A stretch of 16,681 bases of DNA from NCBI GenBank assembly GCA_902778985.1, contig CACYZS010000019.1, positions 1 through 16,681 on the forward strand. The letters are read 5' to 3'. Positions 1,173 through 5,509 of the stretch are shown here, piece by piece. The DNA is from an uncultured Ruminococcus sp. GTDB taxonomy: Bacteria; Bacillota; Clostridia; Oscillospirales; CAG-272. A model generated the notes under the pieces. It did not search any database, was not told the origin of the DNA, and saw only the letters and a program-made list of their open reading frames with translations. Within the stretch, counting starts at the first letter, position 1; every line of letters starts with the position of its first letter. A program made the translations under genes and the position numbers.

Positions 1173-2525
1173 TTATTGTTGCAGGTATTCCAGCCACTCG
1201 GCTTTCAGCCCCTCGTAGTCCTTCCCGAGATTGGCCGTGATCGCCTGCCTCCGGTAGGCGTTCATCACCTTCTCGAGTCCGCGCGTACTCACAAGATACA
1301 GAACGAGGGACGTCGCCTGATTGTAAGTGAGTTCGGCGCCGACGCCGGTGCACTCCCTTCCGTTGTTCACCTCTTTGTACGTGTCTCCGAGCGTCGAGGT
1401 TTCCATTCCCAATTCGGTCTTTGCCGTCACGTCATAGAGGATTTGCCAATCTATTGAAGCGGGAGTTTCAAAAGTACCGCCGCGTTCCACGTATTCCTCA
1501 AATTCCCGTTTCATTCTTTGCGAATTGGCGTCTCCCGCTGCGGCGCCTTCGTCGAAATAACCCGCTTCGGCATTTTTCAATTCCGTCCAGGTAAACATGC
1601 TGTCATAATAAAGGTCGAAGCCGAGCGCACTGCCGAAATAGTTACAGAGCCCTTCACTCAACCATATATTTGCCGCGTTGTTGATCCCCATTGAGTGAAC
1701 CGACTCGTGAAGCATGGCGGTGTAATCGTTGATGGTCATGATATGCGTCGCTCCGTTGGTTGCCGACGGGGAGCCGCGCTGAAGCGTCATAAAGTAATAA
1801 AAGTGTTTGCCCGTGTTCATCCACTCCGAATAACCGTTTTCATTCAGATACGCGATCATTTTGTTCAGAGCGACGTTTTTGAAGTAAACAATACCGGGAT
1901 AGGTCCAGTACAGATCCGTGTAATCACCGAAATAGTACGTTGCGTTGTTCAGTTGAAGGATGTATTTGTAATACGAGTTTGAATGACAGTCCAGCCCCGA
2001 CATAACGCGGTCCATCTCTTGCAGTTCCGGCAATTCCGTAAGTGCCGTAAAATCAACGTCGATGCCGATCGACTTCAGATAAGCGGTCCTGAATTCACAC
2101 CGTCTTTCGACGTCCGGCAGCGCGTCGACGCCGTAATGGCGGACGACGAAATCAAAGAACGTCTCCGCTATGGGAACGGCGTTTTCGGGATCGTAGACGA
2201 ACAGATCGTCGTAAAGGCACAGGTAACTGTACAGTTCGAGAATATTGTTTGCAATCCCGGAAAAGAAGGACGACATATCCGGGACCTCTTTCCCGGCGTC
2301 GTAGGCGGCAAGCCCGTATCTGATCCACTCCTCGCCGGTGTCGCGAACGGCTTCGAACGGATCGGACGCAGACGTGGTGACCGTCTCGGTCGCGTCGGTT
2401 ATCCCTTCGATGAATTGCGTCGTCGCTGCCGTTTGGGTTCCCGTGTTCTGCGCACAGGAGCAAAAAACGAAAACCGCAAGCAAAAGCAGCGAAAGAAGCG
2501 ACGTGAACCGTGTTTTCATCTCCAT
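1173..2525 (-). CDS. Putative zinc metallopeptidase lipoprotein (gluzincin-like, peptidase MA fold)
   Basis: A 450-residue exported protein. The N-terminus (KTR followed by LLSLLLLAVFVFCSC) is a lipoprotein signal, with C24 the likely lipidated residue (C22 is an alternative). A Thr/Ala-rich linker follows to about residue 55. The central part contains HESVH (273-277) and, 13 residues on, WLSEGL with E291. Together these form the HExxH...E zinc site of gluzincins, with E274 as catalytic base. A later YNQATSLVLYLVSTRG (401-416) resembles the closing helix of peptidase-MA proteins. It therefore probably hydrolyses peptides at the outer face of the membrane; the substrate is unknown. The ATG at 2525 overlaps the end of the upstream XRE gene by 10 bases and has AAGGA nearby, so the two genes are co-translated. 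I do not recognise a named gene. Confidence 0.8.
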   Translation of the reverse strand: MEMKTRFTSLLSLLLLAVFVFCSCAQNTGTQTAATTQFIEGITDATETVTTSASDPFEAVRDTGEEWIRYGLAAYDAGKEVPDMSSFFSGIANNILELYSYLCLYDDLFVYDPENAVPIAETFFDFVVRHYGVDALPDVERRCEFRTAYLKSIGIDVDFTALTELPELQEMDRVMSGLDCHSNSYYKYILQLNNATYYFGDYTDLYWTYPGIVYFKNVALNKMIAYLNENGYSEWMNTGKHFYYFMTLQRGSPSATNGATHIMTINDYTAMLHESVHSMGINNAANIWLSEGLCNYFGSALGFDLYYDSMFTWTELKNAEAGYFDEGAAAGDANSQRMKREFEEYVERGGTFETPASIDWQILYDVTAKTELGMETSTLGDTYKEVNNGRECTGVGAELTYNQATSLVLYLVSTRGLEKVMNAYRRQAITANLGKDYEGLKAEWLEYLQQ

Positions 2526-3565
2526 TTTCCATCCTTGTTATATTGATCGAGAAACCGATCTCTCATTTTCGTAACGTCTTCTTTGAACTGCTCAAATACC
2601 GGAAGACGAAGCATAATGTCGCAAAGCGAGCAGTACAGGTAGCCGAGCGGTTTTATGGGTTCGGTCTGCCATTCCGGGAACAGAAGCGGGGACGTTTCGT
2701 CAACGCCGACACCCGTCAGGTATCTGTCCATCGAGAACAACACCTTTTTCATATACTCCGCCGCTTTCCCGTTTTCCCCCATCAGTGCGTACGTCTCTGT
2801 GATCTTTACGTATTTTTCGACCAGAAAATTTTCGTAGAAGCCGGCAAATTTCCCTTCCAGGACCGTTTCGAAGAGAGTCGCCGCTTTTAGATAGTAATAG
2901 AGACGCTGTTCCGGGGGCAGATCCGGTCGGGCAAGTTGCCATAGCACCTTGTCGGCGTGAAGGATCAGGTGGATCAGGGTTCTCAGTTCCTGCACCCGGT
3001 CTTCCTCTTTACTCAGAACGTACTTCGCGGAAAACTCGCGTCCGTGCCGGAAAAGCGGCAGTTTTTGATAATAATACTTCCCCTTTTCGCGGATCGCGGG
3101 ATCATTCGATCTTGCACAGATCCTGACCGTATTGCGGAATATCTCGTTGCGTTTTTCGTCGTCGGTACAGTGTTTGTCGGCGTGTTCGGCAAGAGAGAGC
3201 ATCGTCTTGATCCGTTCCGGATCACGGAAACGCGCGGTATTGGCAAGTTCCATAATTTCCGCGTAGTACTCGTACGTATCGGGGTTCAGTTTGATCTCTT
3301 TGAGCCACTCCGACCATTCGGCTTCATATTCCTTTTTCCCGTGAAGCGAACGGATCCTTTCCCAAAACGCCTTGCGATGCTCCTCGCTCCACGTCAGTTC
3401 CATATCGAAAAGCGAATCGATCGAGCATCCGAACAGGACCGCCATTTTCGGCAAAACCGACAGGTCGGGCTGTACCAGCCCGCGTTCCCACTTGGAAACG
3501 GTCTGCGACGAAACCGACAGAACCCGCGCGACCTCGTCCTGCGTCATATTCCGTTCTTTCCGCAA
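2516..3565 (-). CDS. XRE-family helix-turn-helix transcriptional regulator with long C-terminal region
   Basis: From the TTG at 3565 this is 349 residues. Residues 1-55 are an HTH_3/Cro-CI domain: MTQDEVARVLSVSSQTVSKW, then ERG-x-x-x-PDLSVLPKMA and a hydrophobic end at GCSIDSLFDM. The remaining 290 residues are alpha-helical and charged, with many Tyr/Leu-rich helix pairs that look like a solenoid (TPR-like) sensor region, although no clear repeat signature can be read. The true start is probably not this TTG. The in-frame upstream codons read ACG-GAA-CTG-AAA-GAC, which with ATG for ACG gives the family-typical MELKDRIRELRKER, and AAAGGGG (3603-3609) lies 11 bases before that ACG (3590-3592). 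It forms an operon with the overlapping lipoprotein-peptidase gene and probably regulates itself through the adjacent palindrome (inference). Confidence 0.88.
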   Translation of the reverse strand: MRKERNMTQDEVARVLSVSSQTVSKWERGLVQPDLSVLPKMAVLFGCSIDSLFDMELTWSEEHRKAFWERIRSLHGKKEYEAEWSEWLKEIKLNPDTYEYYAEIMELANTARFRDPERIKTMLSLAEHADKHCTDDEKRNEIFRNTVRICARSNDPAIREKGKYYYQKLPLFRHGREFSAKYVLSKEEDRVQELRTLIHLILHADKVLWQLARPDLPPEQRLYYYLKAATLFETVLEGKFAGFYENFLVEKYVKITETYALMGENGKAAEYMKKVLFSMDRYLTGVGVDETSPLLFPEWQTEPIKPLGYLYCSLCDIMLRLPVFEQFKEDVTKMRDRFLDQYNKDGKWR

Positions 3566-3630
3566 CTCCCGGATCCTGTCTTTCAGTTCCGTTTTCCCGT
3601 CACCCCTTTCGATATTGATCTTTCACCATT

Positions 3631-3659
3631 ATTCTATCATTTTCCGAGTTCATTGTAAA
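3631..3659 (-). promoter_or_regulatory. Sigma-A type promoter of the XRE/lipoprotein operon
   Basis: On the minus strand TTTACA (3654-3659) and TAGAAT (3631-3636) are separated by exactly 17 bases. Each box has one mismatch to TTGACA/TATAAT. Transcription would begin about 30 bases before the AAAGGGG ribosome site of the XRE gene. Confidence 0.75.
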
Positions 3660-3661
3660 TA

Positions 3662-3685
3662 GACAATTCTGCACGCCGAATTGTC
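3662..3685 (-). promoter_or_regulatory. Interrupted palindrome, candidate operator next to the -35 box
   Basis: GACAATTC (3662-3669), 8 spacer bases and GAATTGTC (3678-3685) form a perfect inverted repeat that ends 2 bases upstream of the -35 hexamer. A third ATTGT half-site (3652-3656) overlaps the -35 box and pairs with ACAAT at 3663-3667. Such spacing fits a dimeric HTH regulator, most simply the XRE protein itself. This is inference; the sequence shows only the symmetry and the position. Confidence 0.45.
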
Positions 3686-3742
3686 CGTTTTGGCGAACCG
3701 CGACACCGCTTCGGTAACTTTCGCCCCCCACCCGCGCCGTAG

Positions 3743-3764
3743 GGGACGGCGTCCTCGACGTCCC
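3743..3764. repeat. GGGACG...CGTCCC hairpin
   Basis: A 6-base-pair inverted repeat (3743-3748 with 3759-3764) with a 10-base loop, inside a GTAGGGGACGGCGTCC segment. It lies between the two TTCGGTAAC repeats. It resembles short GC-rich intergenic hairpins that recur in clostridial genomes, but that comparison is from memory only. Confidence 0.45.
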
Positions 3765-3780
3765 ATTCTTCGGTAACATT

Positions 3781-4080
3781 CAAAAAACAAACTGCGCCAG
3801 CCCTGTTATCAGGCGCGCGCAGGCAGATGCAGAATTCGCGTTTGCGTCCCGAAGCCTGTATACCAACCGTTCTTCGCCTTCGGCTCCGCACGCTTGCATA
3901 CCGCGAGAGGTTAGCGAGCGAAAACGCCCCGGTGGGGTGTTTTCTTGAAGCGGTGTCGCCCCAAGAACCCGTTTGAAGGAGCGAACCTGCGAGCGACGCG
4001 CAAACGGGATTTGACGGCGACCGGATCGCAAACGCGAATAGGAAAACAAATTGAACAAAATGGAGAAAACCGCCCGTGAA
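3781..4080. repeat. Structured intergenic element, copy 1 (long form)
   Basis: The copy begins with CAAAAAACAAACTGCGCCAG and ends near TGGAGAAAACCG. It has a 5' hairpin (CCTG-TTAT-CAGG at 3802-3813, with an outer CTGCGC/GCGCAG pairing), then the shared GCAGAATTC anchor (3829-3837). A perfect 13-base-pair long-range stem joins 3834-3846 to 4027-4039. Inside the stem are an AAAACGCCCC/GGGGTGTTTT hairpin (3921-3943) and a CCCGTTTG/CAAACGGG pair (3968-3975 with 4001-4008). After the stem comes the second shared anchor, GGAAAACAAA (4041-4050). Copy 2 shares both anchors and the stem architecture, but not most of the interior. Confidence 0.65.
3921..3943. terminator. Terminator-like hairpin within element copy 1
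   Basis: AAAACGCCCC (3921-3930) and GGGGTGTTTT (3934-3943) pair over 10 positions (one G-U) around a 3-base loop. An A-run on one side and a T-run on the other make it a possible bidirectional terminator. It could equally be just an internal helix of the structured element. Confidence 0.4.
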
Positions 4081-4140
4081 GGAAGGGGTTCCCCGACGTG
4101 AGTTTACGAGCGTTGGGGGTTCCCGTGATCGCGCGCCGTC

Positions 4141-4320
4141 CAAAAACCCACCTGCGCCAGCAAGTGCTGCCGTGGCGCGCGAGAACGAGCGCAGAATTCC
4201 CGTTCTCGATCCGAAGGCGTACAATCGTACGCCGAGAGTGAGAGAACGTGAGAGAACGGGGAGAGGAAAACAAAAATTCGATCAAATGGAGAAAACCGTC
4301 CCGAAGGACGGTTTTCAACC
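4141..4320. repeat. Structured intergenic element, copy 2 (short form)
   Basis: The copy begins with CAAAAACCCACCTGCGCCAG. It contains a CAGC-AAGT-GCTG hairpin (4158-4169), the GCAGAATTC anchor (4191-4199), a long-range stem of 11 pairs (4197-4207 with 4252-4262), a perfect GGCGTAC-AATC-GTACGCC hairpin (4216-4233), the GGAAAACAAA anchor (4265-4274) and the shared TGGAGAAAACCG (4288-4299). Compared with copy 1 the stem sequence differs at several positions, but the partner bases differ too, so pairing is kept. GAGAACG appears three times within it (4181, 4242 and 4252). Confidence 0.65.
4291..4316 (-). terminator. Intrinsic terminator of the transporter operon, UUCG-capped
   Basis: GAAAACCGTCC (4291-4301), CGAA and GGACGGTTTTC (4306-4316) form a perfect 11-base-pair stem. 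On the minus strand the loop is the very stable C(UUCG)G tetraloop, and T-rich sequence follows (ATTTGATCGAATTTTTG). The AAAA/TTTT base of the stem could let it act in both directions. It lies 114 bases past the stop of the last permease gene. Confidence 0.75.
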
Positions 4321-4372
4321 ATAAAATGCAATTTGCTATGCAGGGTAACGGAACAAAGCGAAAAGCAAAGGC

Positions 4373-4388
4373 GGACTTGAGATAGTCC
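4373..4388. terminator. Small hairpin between the last permease gene and the main terminator
   Basis: GGACT (4373-4377), six loop bases and AGTCC (4384-4388). The plus strand continues with CATTTTTGTTTT, so it looks like a terminator facing right, although no plus-strand gene reads into it. On the minus strand it may be an auxiliary 3'-end hairpin. Confidence 0.3.
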
Positions 4389-4429
4389 CATTTTTGTTTT
4401 CCGGTCTGTGCCGTCGATCGCGCGACGTC

Positions 4430-5494
4430 TTACCCGACGATACCGGAACGTTCGATACCCTGCACCAGATACCGCTGGCAGAACAGGAACACGATCAGCA
4501 ACGGGAAGATAACCATCAACCCGCCGGCGTTCTTGACCGCCTTGTAGTACTGTCCGGAAACCGCGAGGTTATTGACCTGCAGCGCGGGAGGCGCCGAGTT
4601 CATAACCAGGTCGGGCATCAGCCCGATGCCGCCGCTCGAAGAGAAGAACAGATTGGTGTAGAAACTATCCGTCCACTGCCACGAGAAGGCGAACAGGAAG
4701 ATGGTGATCATCATCGGGATCGAAAGCGGGAGGATGATCCGGAAGAAGGTGCGGAAGGTACCCGAACCGTCCATATACGCGGACTCCTCGAGTTCGTCCG
4801 GCACGCCGTGGAAGAACTGGCGCATCATGAAGATATACAGCCCGTTCTTGAAGGCAAGACCGGTTGCCGACAGGATCGCGAACGGCCAATAGGTATTGGT
4901 CAGGCGGAGCGTGTGCTTGAAGATCCGCTCCAGAAGTCCGGGCGTGTTGGTCGCCTGGATCGCGAAGAAGTCGAATTCGCCGAAGTGCTGGAAGAGCGAG
5001 AGTTTCAGCGTATTGTGCGGGATCGCCATCGTGATGATGACGAGGACCAGGACCAGTTTGTTCCCTTTGAAGCGGAACTTGGCAAGTCCGTACCCGATCA
5101 TACAGGTCACGAAGGTTTGCAGCCCGGCGGAGAGCACCGAGAGGATCAGGGTGTTGCGCAGGATCGTGAGGTAATGCCAGTACTTCGCCAACTGTACGTA
5201 GATGTTGAACGAAATCTTGGTCGGGATCAGGTTGACCTGCGTGTTGCTGAAGTCCTCAAGCGGCCAGAACGAGGTCATCAGGTTCGTCAAAAACGGGTAC
5301 AGAATGACGAAACTGATACCCAGCATCATGATAAAGCGGAACAGGTACCAGACGCGGTCGATCCAGAAGGACGACGACGTCAGCCGCATGATCAGGCGCT
5401 GTTTGAAGGGGATCTTCCCTTCGAAGTTCATCTTGACGCCGCGTTTGGTGATCACGGCGGTAGGGGCGGTTTGGTTGGTTTTCTGATTATCCAT
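4430..5494 (-). CDS. Carbohydrate ABC transporter permease, MalG-like (second pair)
   Basis: A 354-residue inner-membrane permease of the CUT1 (MalG/UgpE) type. A polar N-terminal tail of about 45 residues precedes the first membrane helix (about 50-72). Four or five further helices follow, including one just before the C-terminus. The ATPase-docking EAA loop is clear at about 235-259: ELEESAYMDGSGTF, then FFRIILPLSIP. The C-terminus ends IERSGIVG, as is usual for this family. I place the start at the ATG at 5494 because GGGGAGGTGA sits 7 bases ahead of it; a GTG three codons upstream overlaps that ribosome site. It follows the MalF-like partner after 15 bases and is the last gene of the operon. 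The sugar carried cannot be told from the sequence. Confidence 0.92.
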   Translation of the reverse strand: MDNQKTNQTAPTAVITKRGVKMNFEGKIPFKQRLIMRLTSSSFWIDRVWYLFRFIMMLGISFVILYPFLTNLMTSFWPLEDFSNTQVNLIPTKISFNIYVQLAKYWHYLTILRNTLILSVLSAGLQTFVTCMIGYGLAKFRFKGNKLVLVLVIITMAIPHNTLKLSLFQHFGEFDFFAIQATNTPGLLERIFKHTLRLTNTYWPFAILSATGLAFKNGLYIFMMRQFFHGVPDELEESAYMDGSGTFRTFFRIILPLSIPMMITIFLFAFSWQWTDSFYTNLFFSSSGGIGLMPDLVMNSAPPALQVNNLAVSGQYYKAVKNAGGLMVIFPLLIVFLFCQRYLVQGIERSGIVG

Positions 5495-5509
5495 TCTTTT
5501 CACCTCCCC

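Follow-up and report, generated by a model that had tools for sequence, protein, structure and literature searches.

Two probable members of a structured, non-autonomous mobile element family behind a permease gene of an uncultured Ruminococcus

Bacterial genomes carry small dispersed repeats such as bcr and ERIC, which measure 100-200 bp and have a predicted fold. In pneumococci, BOX is described as modular and SPRITE as terminator-like, and BOX, RUP and SPRITE can insert into one another, according to the part of the source used here (PMC3049150). Hairpins also serve as insertion targets. The portion of PMC4923244 drawn on here reports that IS1272 and TnSha1 (IS1182 family) target hairpins with no primary sequence preference, and that five of the seven mapped sites were confirmed terminators, with insertion at the hairpin base or in the stem. 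IS1272 carries its transposase, and its insertion is described there as blunt, part of the hairpin being deleted and the target not duplicated (PMC4923244).

The window analysed here is the whole stretch of 16,681 nucleotides from an uncultured Ruminococcus sp. (contig CACYZS010000019.1). The original prediction had placed within it two diverged copies of an element with a long stem. We give a probability of roughly 0.78 to the reading that these are two members of a non-autonomous mobile family (~230-290 bp) with a P0/P1/P4 junction core, which inserts at terminator hairpins in active lineages. The predicted stem itself was recovered: in copy 1, 3834-3846 (ATTCGCGTTTGCG) pairs perfectly with 4027-4039 (13/13 pairs), and a repeat search finds the same arm as 3834-3851 with 4022-4039 (18 nt, 89%). 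By eye, copy 2 keeps 11 of 13 pairs, one of them G-U, between 4196-4208 and 4251-4263, and the three columns said to change on both sides at once between the copies do so. Blocks common to both copies are 79-86% identical in the repeat search. The stem proved to be arm P4, one arm of a larger minus-strand structure (Table 1), and the element extends past the end of the piece (3781..4320) in which it was first noticed.

Table 1. Features of the two element copies in the window (positions of the window; A3, alignment of window-lineage copies)
Feature	Position	Strand	Basis or remark
Copy 2, intact unit	4141..4429	-	289 bp start-to-start; aligned with 28 other copies (A3)
5' end and P0 5' strand	4405..4429	-	directly 3' of the ABC permease stop codon; P0 = A3 columns 31-34 with 255-258
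P1 5' strand CGGAAAACAAAAAT	4390..4403	-	A3 fold and pair counts
Terminator-like hairpin GAAAACCGTCC-TTCG-GGACGGTTTTC within arm P1	4291..4316	-	A3 fold
P1 3' strand ATTTTTGTTTTCC	4265..4277	-	A3 fold and pair counts
Arm P4	4191..4265	-	P4-model match at 4192-4273; A3 fold
Near-invariant P4 tip CTCTCGGCGTACGATTGTACGCCTTCGG	4211..4238	-	pattern in 34/391 class genomes, reversed control 0
P0 3' strand TTCTGC, after arm P4	4191-4196	-	A3 fold
3' terminal hairpin, distal end of copy 2 unit	4154..4181	-	by eye
Copy 1, damaged tandem copy	3781..4140	-	sequence reading and repeat search
Nested palindromic repeat CGGGAACCCCCAACGCTCGTAAACTCACGTCGGGGAACCCC, ~41 bp, replacing the 5' half of copy 1	4085..4125	-	same or close repeat in several own-genome (G000) elements
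Further dispersed repeat inserted in copy 1 arm P4	about 3867..4023		own-genome DNA search, limits approximate

The gene upstream of copy 2 (4430-5503, minus strand) encodes an ABC permease (PF00528), and the next minus-strand gene (2516-3565) a helix-turn-helix protein (PF01381). Since the unit start at 4416-4429 recurs 289 bp on, at 4127-4140 (93% alike, repeat search), copy 1 is a tandem copy. Arm P4 of copy 2 contains a 10-bp tandem duplication, GTTCTCTCAC. Copy 1 is reduced to remnants, namely the P1 3' strand (4041-4050), the P4 outer stem described above, the P0 3' strand (3829-3834) and the distal hairpin. Part of the repeat inserted in its arm P4 (3905-4028) is 85% identical to another locus of the same genome (L003, G000:C76, 4363-4486). 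Several other elements of this genome also contain this nested repeat or something close to it: near P0 in L006, L007 and L009, within the inner hairpin in L005, L012 and L013, and near the 3' end in L002. Given these further insertions, recombination between two nested inserts would account for the 5' half that copy 1 has lost. A REP-like repeat, GTAGGGGACGGCGTCCTCGACGTCCC, at window positions 3739-3764 (plus strand) is also found near elements L007, L020, L028 and L029.

The locus is one of many. Copies are present in the window's own genome and in related genomes, so the outcome that would have counted against the original prediction, a single locus, is absent. The own draft genome (1.65 Mb) gave 32 blastn matches, some of which are fragments of one copy or nested repeats alone, and 19 copies were examined. 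A P4 model built from 10 copies matched this genome 12 times on 11 arms (one arm on both strands). The model matched 57 of 117 genomes: 56 of the 69 within the genus, the own genome included, and one of the 48 outside it, which belongs to a different family within the order. Across the class, the tip pattern CTCTCGnnGTA..TACnnCTTCGG occurs in 34 of 391 genomes, again including the window's own, and in 23 of 223 genera, with at most 57 matches per genome; the reversed-pattern control gave none. The 17 other same-order genomes of this 391-genome sample are without the tip pattern, and the spread is thus patchy. Scanning named genomes with the tip pattern returned at least 115 stretches; among the matches listed, 77 of 80 bear clostridial labels and 3 bear other labels, and many of the clostridial ones come from herbivore guts, one being labelled Candidatus Coliplasma caballi. 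The P4 tip was also seen in MAGs labelled as other phyla (L118, L133 (Helicobacteraceae), L125 (Verrucomicrobia)), which may reflect transfer, misbinning or chance. In L276, L280 and L340 a variant tip, GCTTG..CGTCGG, replaces TCTCG..CTTCGG; letters flanking the internal loop on either side change jointly, as if forming a non-standard contact.

A pattern scan of viral contigs gave two stretches, L457 and L458, both from one sample, and phage and plasmid records held no element match. In Rfam 15, the window had no match at gathering score, a permissive scan of 3601-4500 gave only matches far below gathering, and 19 other loci matched tRNA and T-box families only. Judged by titles and abstract openings, the literature likewise yielded no published description of the element. 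The original prediction had assigned no known family, and no match to a described repeat or RNA family turned up in these two sources.

The fold was predicted with RNAalifold on two alignments. A3 comprises 29 window-lineage copies (28 picked from the first 40 of 96, plus the window copy), and A4 comprises 17 of the 24 copies listed for four other genomes. Both alignments lean towards intact copies, since those with inserts or truncated ends were left out. On A3, P0, P1, the inner hairpin and P4 form a three-way junction, and on A4 the same junction appears with a terminal hairpin. Of the 51 pairs predicted on A3, 43 were counted: 98.3% of their cells are paired and 19 of the 43 pairs show changes on both sides, so that the covariation first claimed from two copies extends over 29. 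The 104 double-change cells compare with a shuffled mean of 30.2 (0/500 shuffles as high) and with at most 9 when the structure is slid. In A4, 95.1% of cells are paired, 20 of 50 pairs show both-side changes, and 115 double-change cells compare with a shuffled mean of 39.7 (0/500 shuffles as high) and with at most 25 when slid; in both comparisons the structures are favoured over slid versions because they were predicted from the same alignments. Further pair types did not exceed the shuffles (163/500 as high for A3, 500/500 for A4), the A4 count of both-sides pairs was matched by 30 of 500 shuffles, and four A3 P0 pairs never vary and are therefore uninformative on covariation.

Pairing was also seen free of any alignment. 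The strands of an element match each other better than strands taken between copies in 116 of 124 copies for P4 and in 97 of 124 for P1. P4-less copies also occur (L012 1367-1640, L024, L028); there P0 and P1 seem to run together as a single stem, and P4 thus looks like a removable module. A wobble strand test on the same 124 copies gave 72 A-C against 13 G-T in P4 and 26 against 25 in P1. This first P4 count seemed to favour the antisense strand, but the excess comes from a handful of columns and shrinks to 51 A-C against 36 G-T over 93 distinct copies (from the best 99 of 118 P4 matches; the other 19 score below 40 bits and are mostly the opposite strand of the same arms); we read the counts as favouring neither strand. 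The source of the covariation may be a folded intermediate, an RNA or palindrome-correcting mutation.

Copies that are 90-99% identical occupy different sites in three genomes, partly as tandem pairs: over 230 nt, identity is 95-97% in G308 (n=4), 90-95% in G162 (n=9, including tandem pairs) and 93-99% in G503 (n=4). Target duplications were sought in four further genomes that share the junction, G500-G503 (source of L101, L120, L121 and L087), where the units end in CAGrCTGTCGAwAAAG and CTTTTTCGACAAGCwG or close forms, which constitute terminal inverted repeats as in a MITE. From 92 left- or right-end matches, 40 loci were taken, of which 22 were usable (16 had no right end by pattern and 2 had a cut flank). 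Flanking direct repeats score at least 18 in 18 of these 22 copies, compared with 10 for the best cross-site control, and L449 scores 17. The repeat is a whole terminator hairpin, a different one at each site. A strict ungapped rule finds the duplication in 16 of 22, with a length of 21-35 bp, 15 of them being palindromic with stems of at least 6; the left flank folds into a hairpin of -8.4 kcal/mol or lower in 21 of 22. No duplication was seen in three of the 22: in L418 and in L421 the left and right hairpins are unlike each other, and in L426 the left one is missing. At G501:C42:20724-20755 and C91:13812-13843 the terminal hairpins CAGCTTGTCGAAAAA and its complement stand without a nearby left element end among the matches listed, and are perhaps solo hairpins.

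The hairpin duplications, together with the closely similar copies at different sites, indicate a mobile, MITE-like family with a tie to gene ends. The units are short, non-coding, dispersed and present in many copies, and in G500-G503 they are flanked by target site duplications. Unit size is 226-258 bp in G500-G503 and 289 bp in the window. In the window lineage, the only inverted repeats seen at the ends are the paired P0 strands, nor is a target duplication visible there, the window's own genome included.

The tie to gene ends also holds in the window's own genome, where a coding stop lies no more than 36 nt from a hand-set element anchor in 15 of 19 copies; of the rest, two are unresolved and two involve spurious ORFs. 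In seven close genomes the distance from the stop to the start of the model match is 142-167 nt in 46 of 96 copies (taken from the best 99 P4 matches), and the 50 outside this range include many with spurious-looking ORFs. Mechanically called ORFs around 157 copies placed 31 copies inside an ORF, 74 behind a same-strand and 30 behind an opposite-strand upstream ORF, and 47 of the 74 had a stop-to-tip distance of 141-199; this analysis is noisy because of long antisense ORFs. By eye, the elements at L374 and L392 do not lie behind a stop codon. Copies often lie at contig ends. A simple rule detects a terminator-like hairpin in the inner arm of 59 of 98 copies when applied to the gene's strand, and of 14 when applied to the opposite one.

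Orthologous sites differ in element content. At the permease site of the window, the tip is present in five of eight loci (G021, G024, G032, G045, G060) and absent in G026 and both G050 loci; the G026 locus and one G050 locus have a plain hairpin after the permease stop. The element is present in all five close relatives where the permease gene was found, which fits retention. Behind a KH gene (KhpA/KhpB-like, PF13083), the tip occurs in 2 of 30 loci, G000 and G045, and is absent in G067, G032, G060 and G021, which are close relatives by KH protein; in G045, a hairpin resembling the native terminator of the empty sites remains 3' of the element. Behind an isomerase-like gene (PF01261) the tip is found in 3 of 30 loci (G032, G060, G067). 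The first half of the G000 copy is present there, the rest being lost to the contig end, and by eye L224 and L228 may be element remnants. A fourth gene, which we take to be GlmS and whose tail had no Pfam match, has the tip in 3 of 7 loci; G021 and G060 are matched there by the P4 model instead. These differences among drafts are either insertions or precise losses of the element.

We favour a mobile family, and its movement may be pictured as follows. In active lineages, an element would insert at the rho-independent terminator hairpin behind a gene and would leave a whole copy of the hairpin on each side, so that the host gene would keep its terminator. A transposase would act in trans on the folded ends, the target would be recognised as a hairpin or cruciform, and the folded junction would take part in target recognition or the insertion step. 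The window lineage, with its different ends and no visible duplication, would descend from the same mobile family and would now pass many copies on by descent. Its homology to the duplicating lineage is suggested by the junction topology and the P4 tip, and not by the end sequence. A bolder proposal is a new transposition mode, in which a folded single strand carrying the junction and P4 tip (ssDNA, cruciform or RNA) inserts at a hairpin target, the cut falls at the two feet of the terminator palindrome, and the hairpin, not the enzyme, sets the duplication length (21-35 bp). We offer it tentatively and think it unlikely to be correct.

No partner enzyme emerged from the searches. Of the 24 genomes tried, 7 matched an IS1182-family transposase and one of these did so above cut-off; the IS of that genome did not show the element ends, and a partnership is not supported. 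Long elements with CAG ends were absent among the matches listed for four genomes, and no autonomous transposon sharing the element ends was found in these incomplete drafts with the two transposase families tried. The one Y1 transposase found in the own draft genome, L031 (G000:C182:128-598), presumably lies in an IS200-type unit; with no element beside the gene, it is unlinked to the repeats and was set aside as a Y1 or REP-RAYT partner.

The presence of a Y1 transposase, along with structured palindromes behind genes, would suit an alternative in which an HUH transposase or an integrase moves a single-strand element of REP/RAYT or attC type. We consider this highly improbable: no element lies beside that transposase gene, and the idea is weakened by the long target duplications in G500-G503, which to our knowledge HUH transposition would not be expected to leave. 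In another reading, the element is a 3' UTR RNA that acts in cis to regulate or stabilise: the sense RNA would fold into the junction, a protein or RNA would bind the P4 tip, and selection would keep the element behind chosen genes. This would agree with covariation around a near-invariant tip, with the position behind stop codons, with the orientation of the element along with the gene and with its maintenance at one ABC permease gene across G000 and five relatives. However, 59 of 98 copies have a terminator-like hairpin ahead of P4 on the sense strand, so that P4 would often escape transcription from the gene, the tip is present in just 2/30 and 3/30 loci at two other genes, and closely similar copies and target duplications occur elsewhere; the P4 wobble count (36 G-T against 51 A-C in 93 distinct copies) gives no pointer to a folded sense RNA, nor against one. 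We judge such an RNA very unlikely. The original prediction had left the choice between a non-coding RNA and a mobile hairpin element; its mobile half is supported by dispersed and tandem copies, closely similar copies at different sites and target duplications in related genomes. Its RNA half has no such backing, the sense strand often having a terminator-like hairpin ahead of P4.

Template switching on quasi-palindromes is a mutational process that corrects palindromes, and together with whole-arm exchange between copies it might have produced the covariation in place of selection on the fold. The element is largely palindrome, tandem copies occur, and orthologous copies, such as the window copy and that of G021, differ by whole stem segments at a time. 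Against this, the junction-side and tip letters stay near invariant while the stems change, and the junction topology is common to lineages with unrelated stems. We regard this explanation as somewhat unlikely. It nevertheless touches the earlier claim of selection for the fold, which stands as a statement of covariation and falls short as proof of selection, given that palindrome-correcting template switching could also match the arms.

The favoured mobile family is abundant, class-wide yet patchy, and resides mostly in uncultured gut Clostridia. Its copies supply or duplicate terminators, covariation screens could mistake it for a conserved non-coding RNA, and the hairpin-length target duplications make structure-recognising transposition directly testable.

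Set against the systems described so far, as the consulted parts of the sources present them, the family has partial counterparts in each. It resembles REP and REP-targeting IS in that extragenic palindromes act as dispersed repeats and as insertion targets; however, REP units measure 21-65 bases, far below the size of the junction, and the target of those IS is one repeat family, whereas here it is a different terminator at each site (PMC1525189). Insertion occurs at terminator hairpins, as an IS1182-family derivative would show, but with a duplication unlike IS1272. IS1272 targets hairpins, often terminators, as the family probably does; in G500-G503 the whole hairpin is duplicated, and the element carries no transposase. 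Like pneumococcal BOX, RUP and SPRITE, its members are small, dispersed, folded and MITE-like, although in those elements of another lineage the consulted part of the source reports no three-way junction with a P4 tip and no hairpin-length duplication (PMC3049150). On these partial sources, IS1272 comes closest in published behaviour (PMC4923244), and by type of element the nearest neighbours are BOX, RUP and SPRITE (PMC3049150, PMC10969869).
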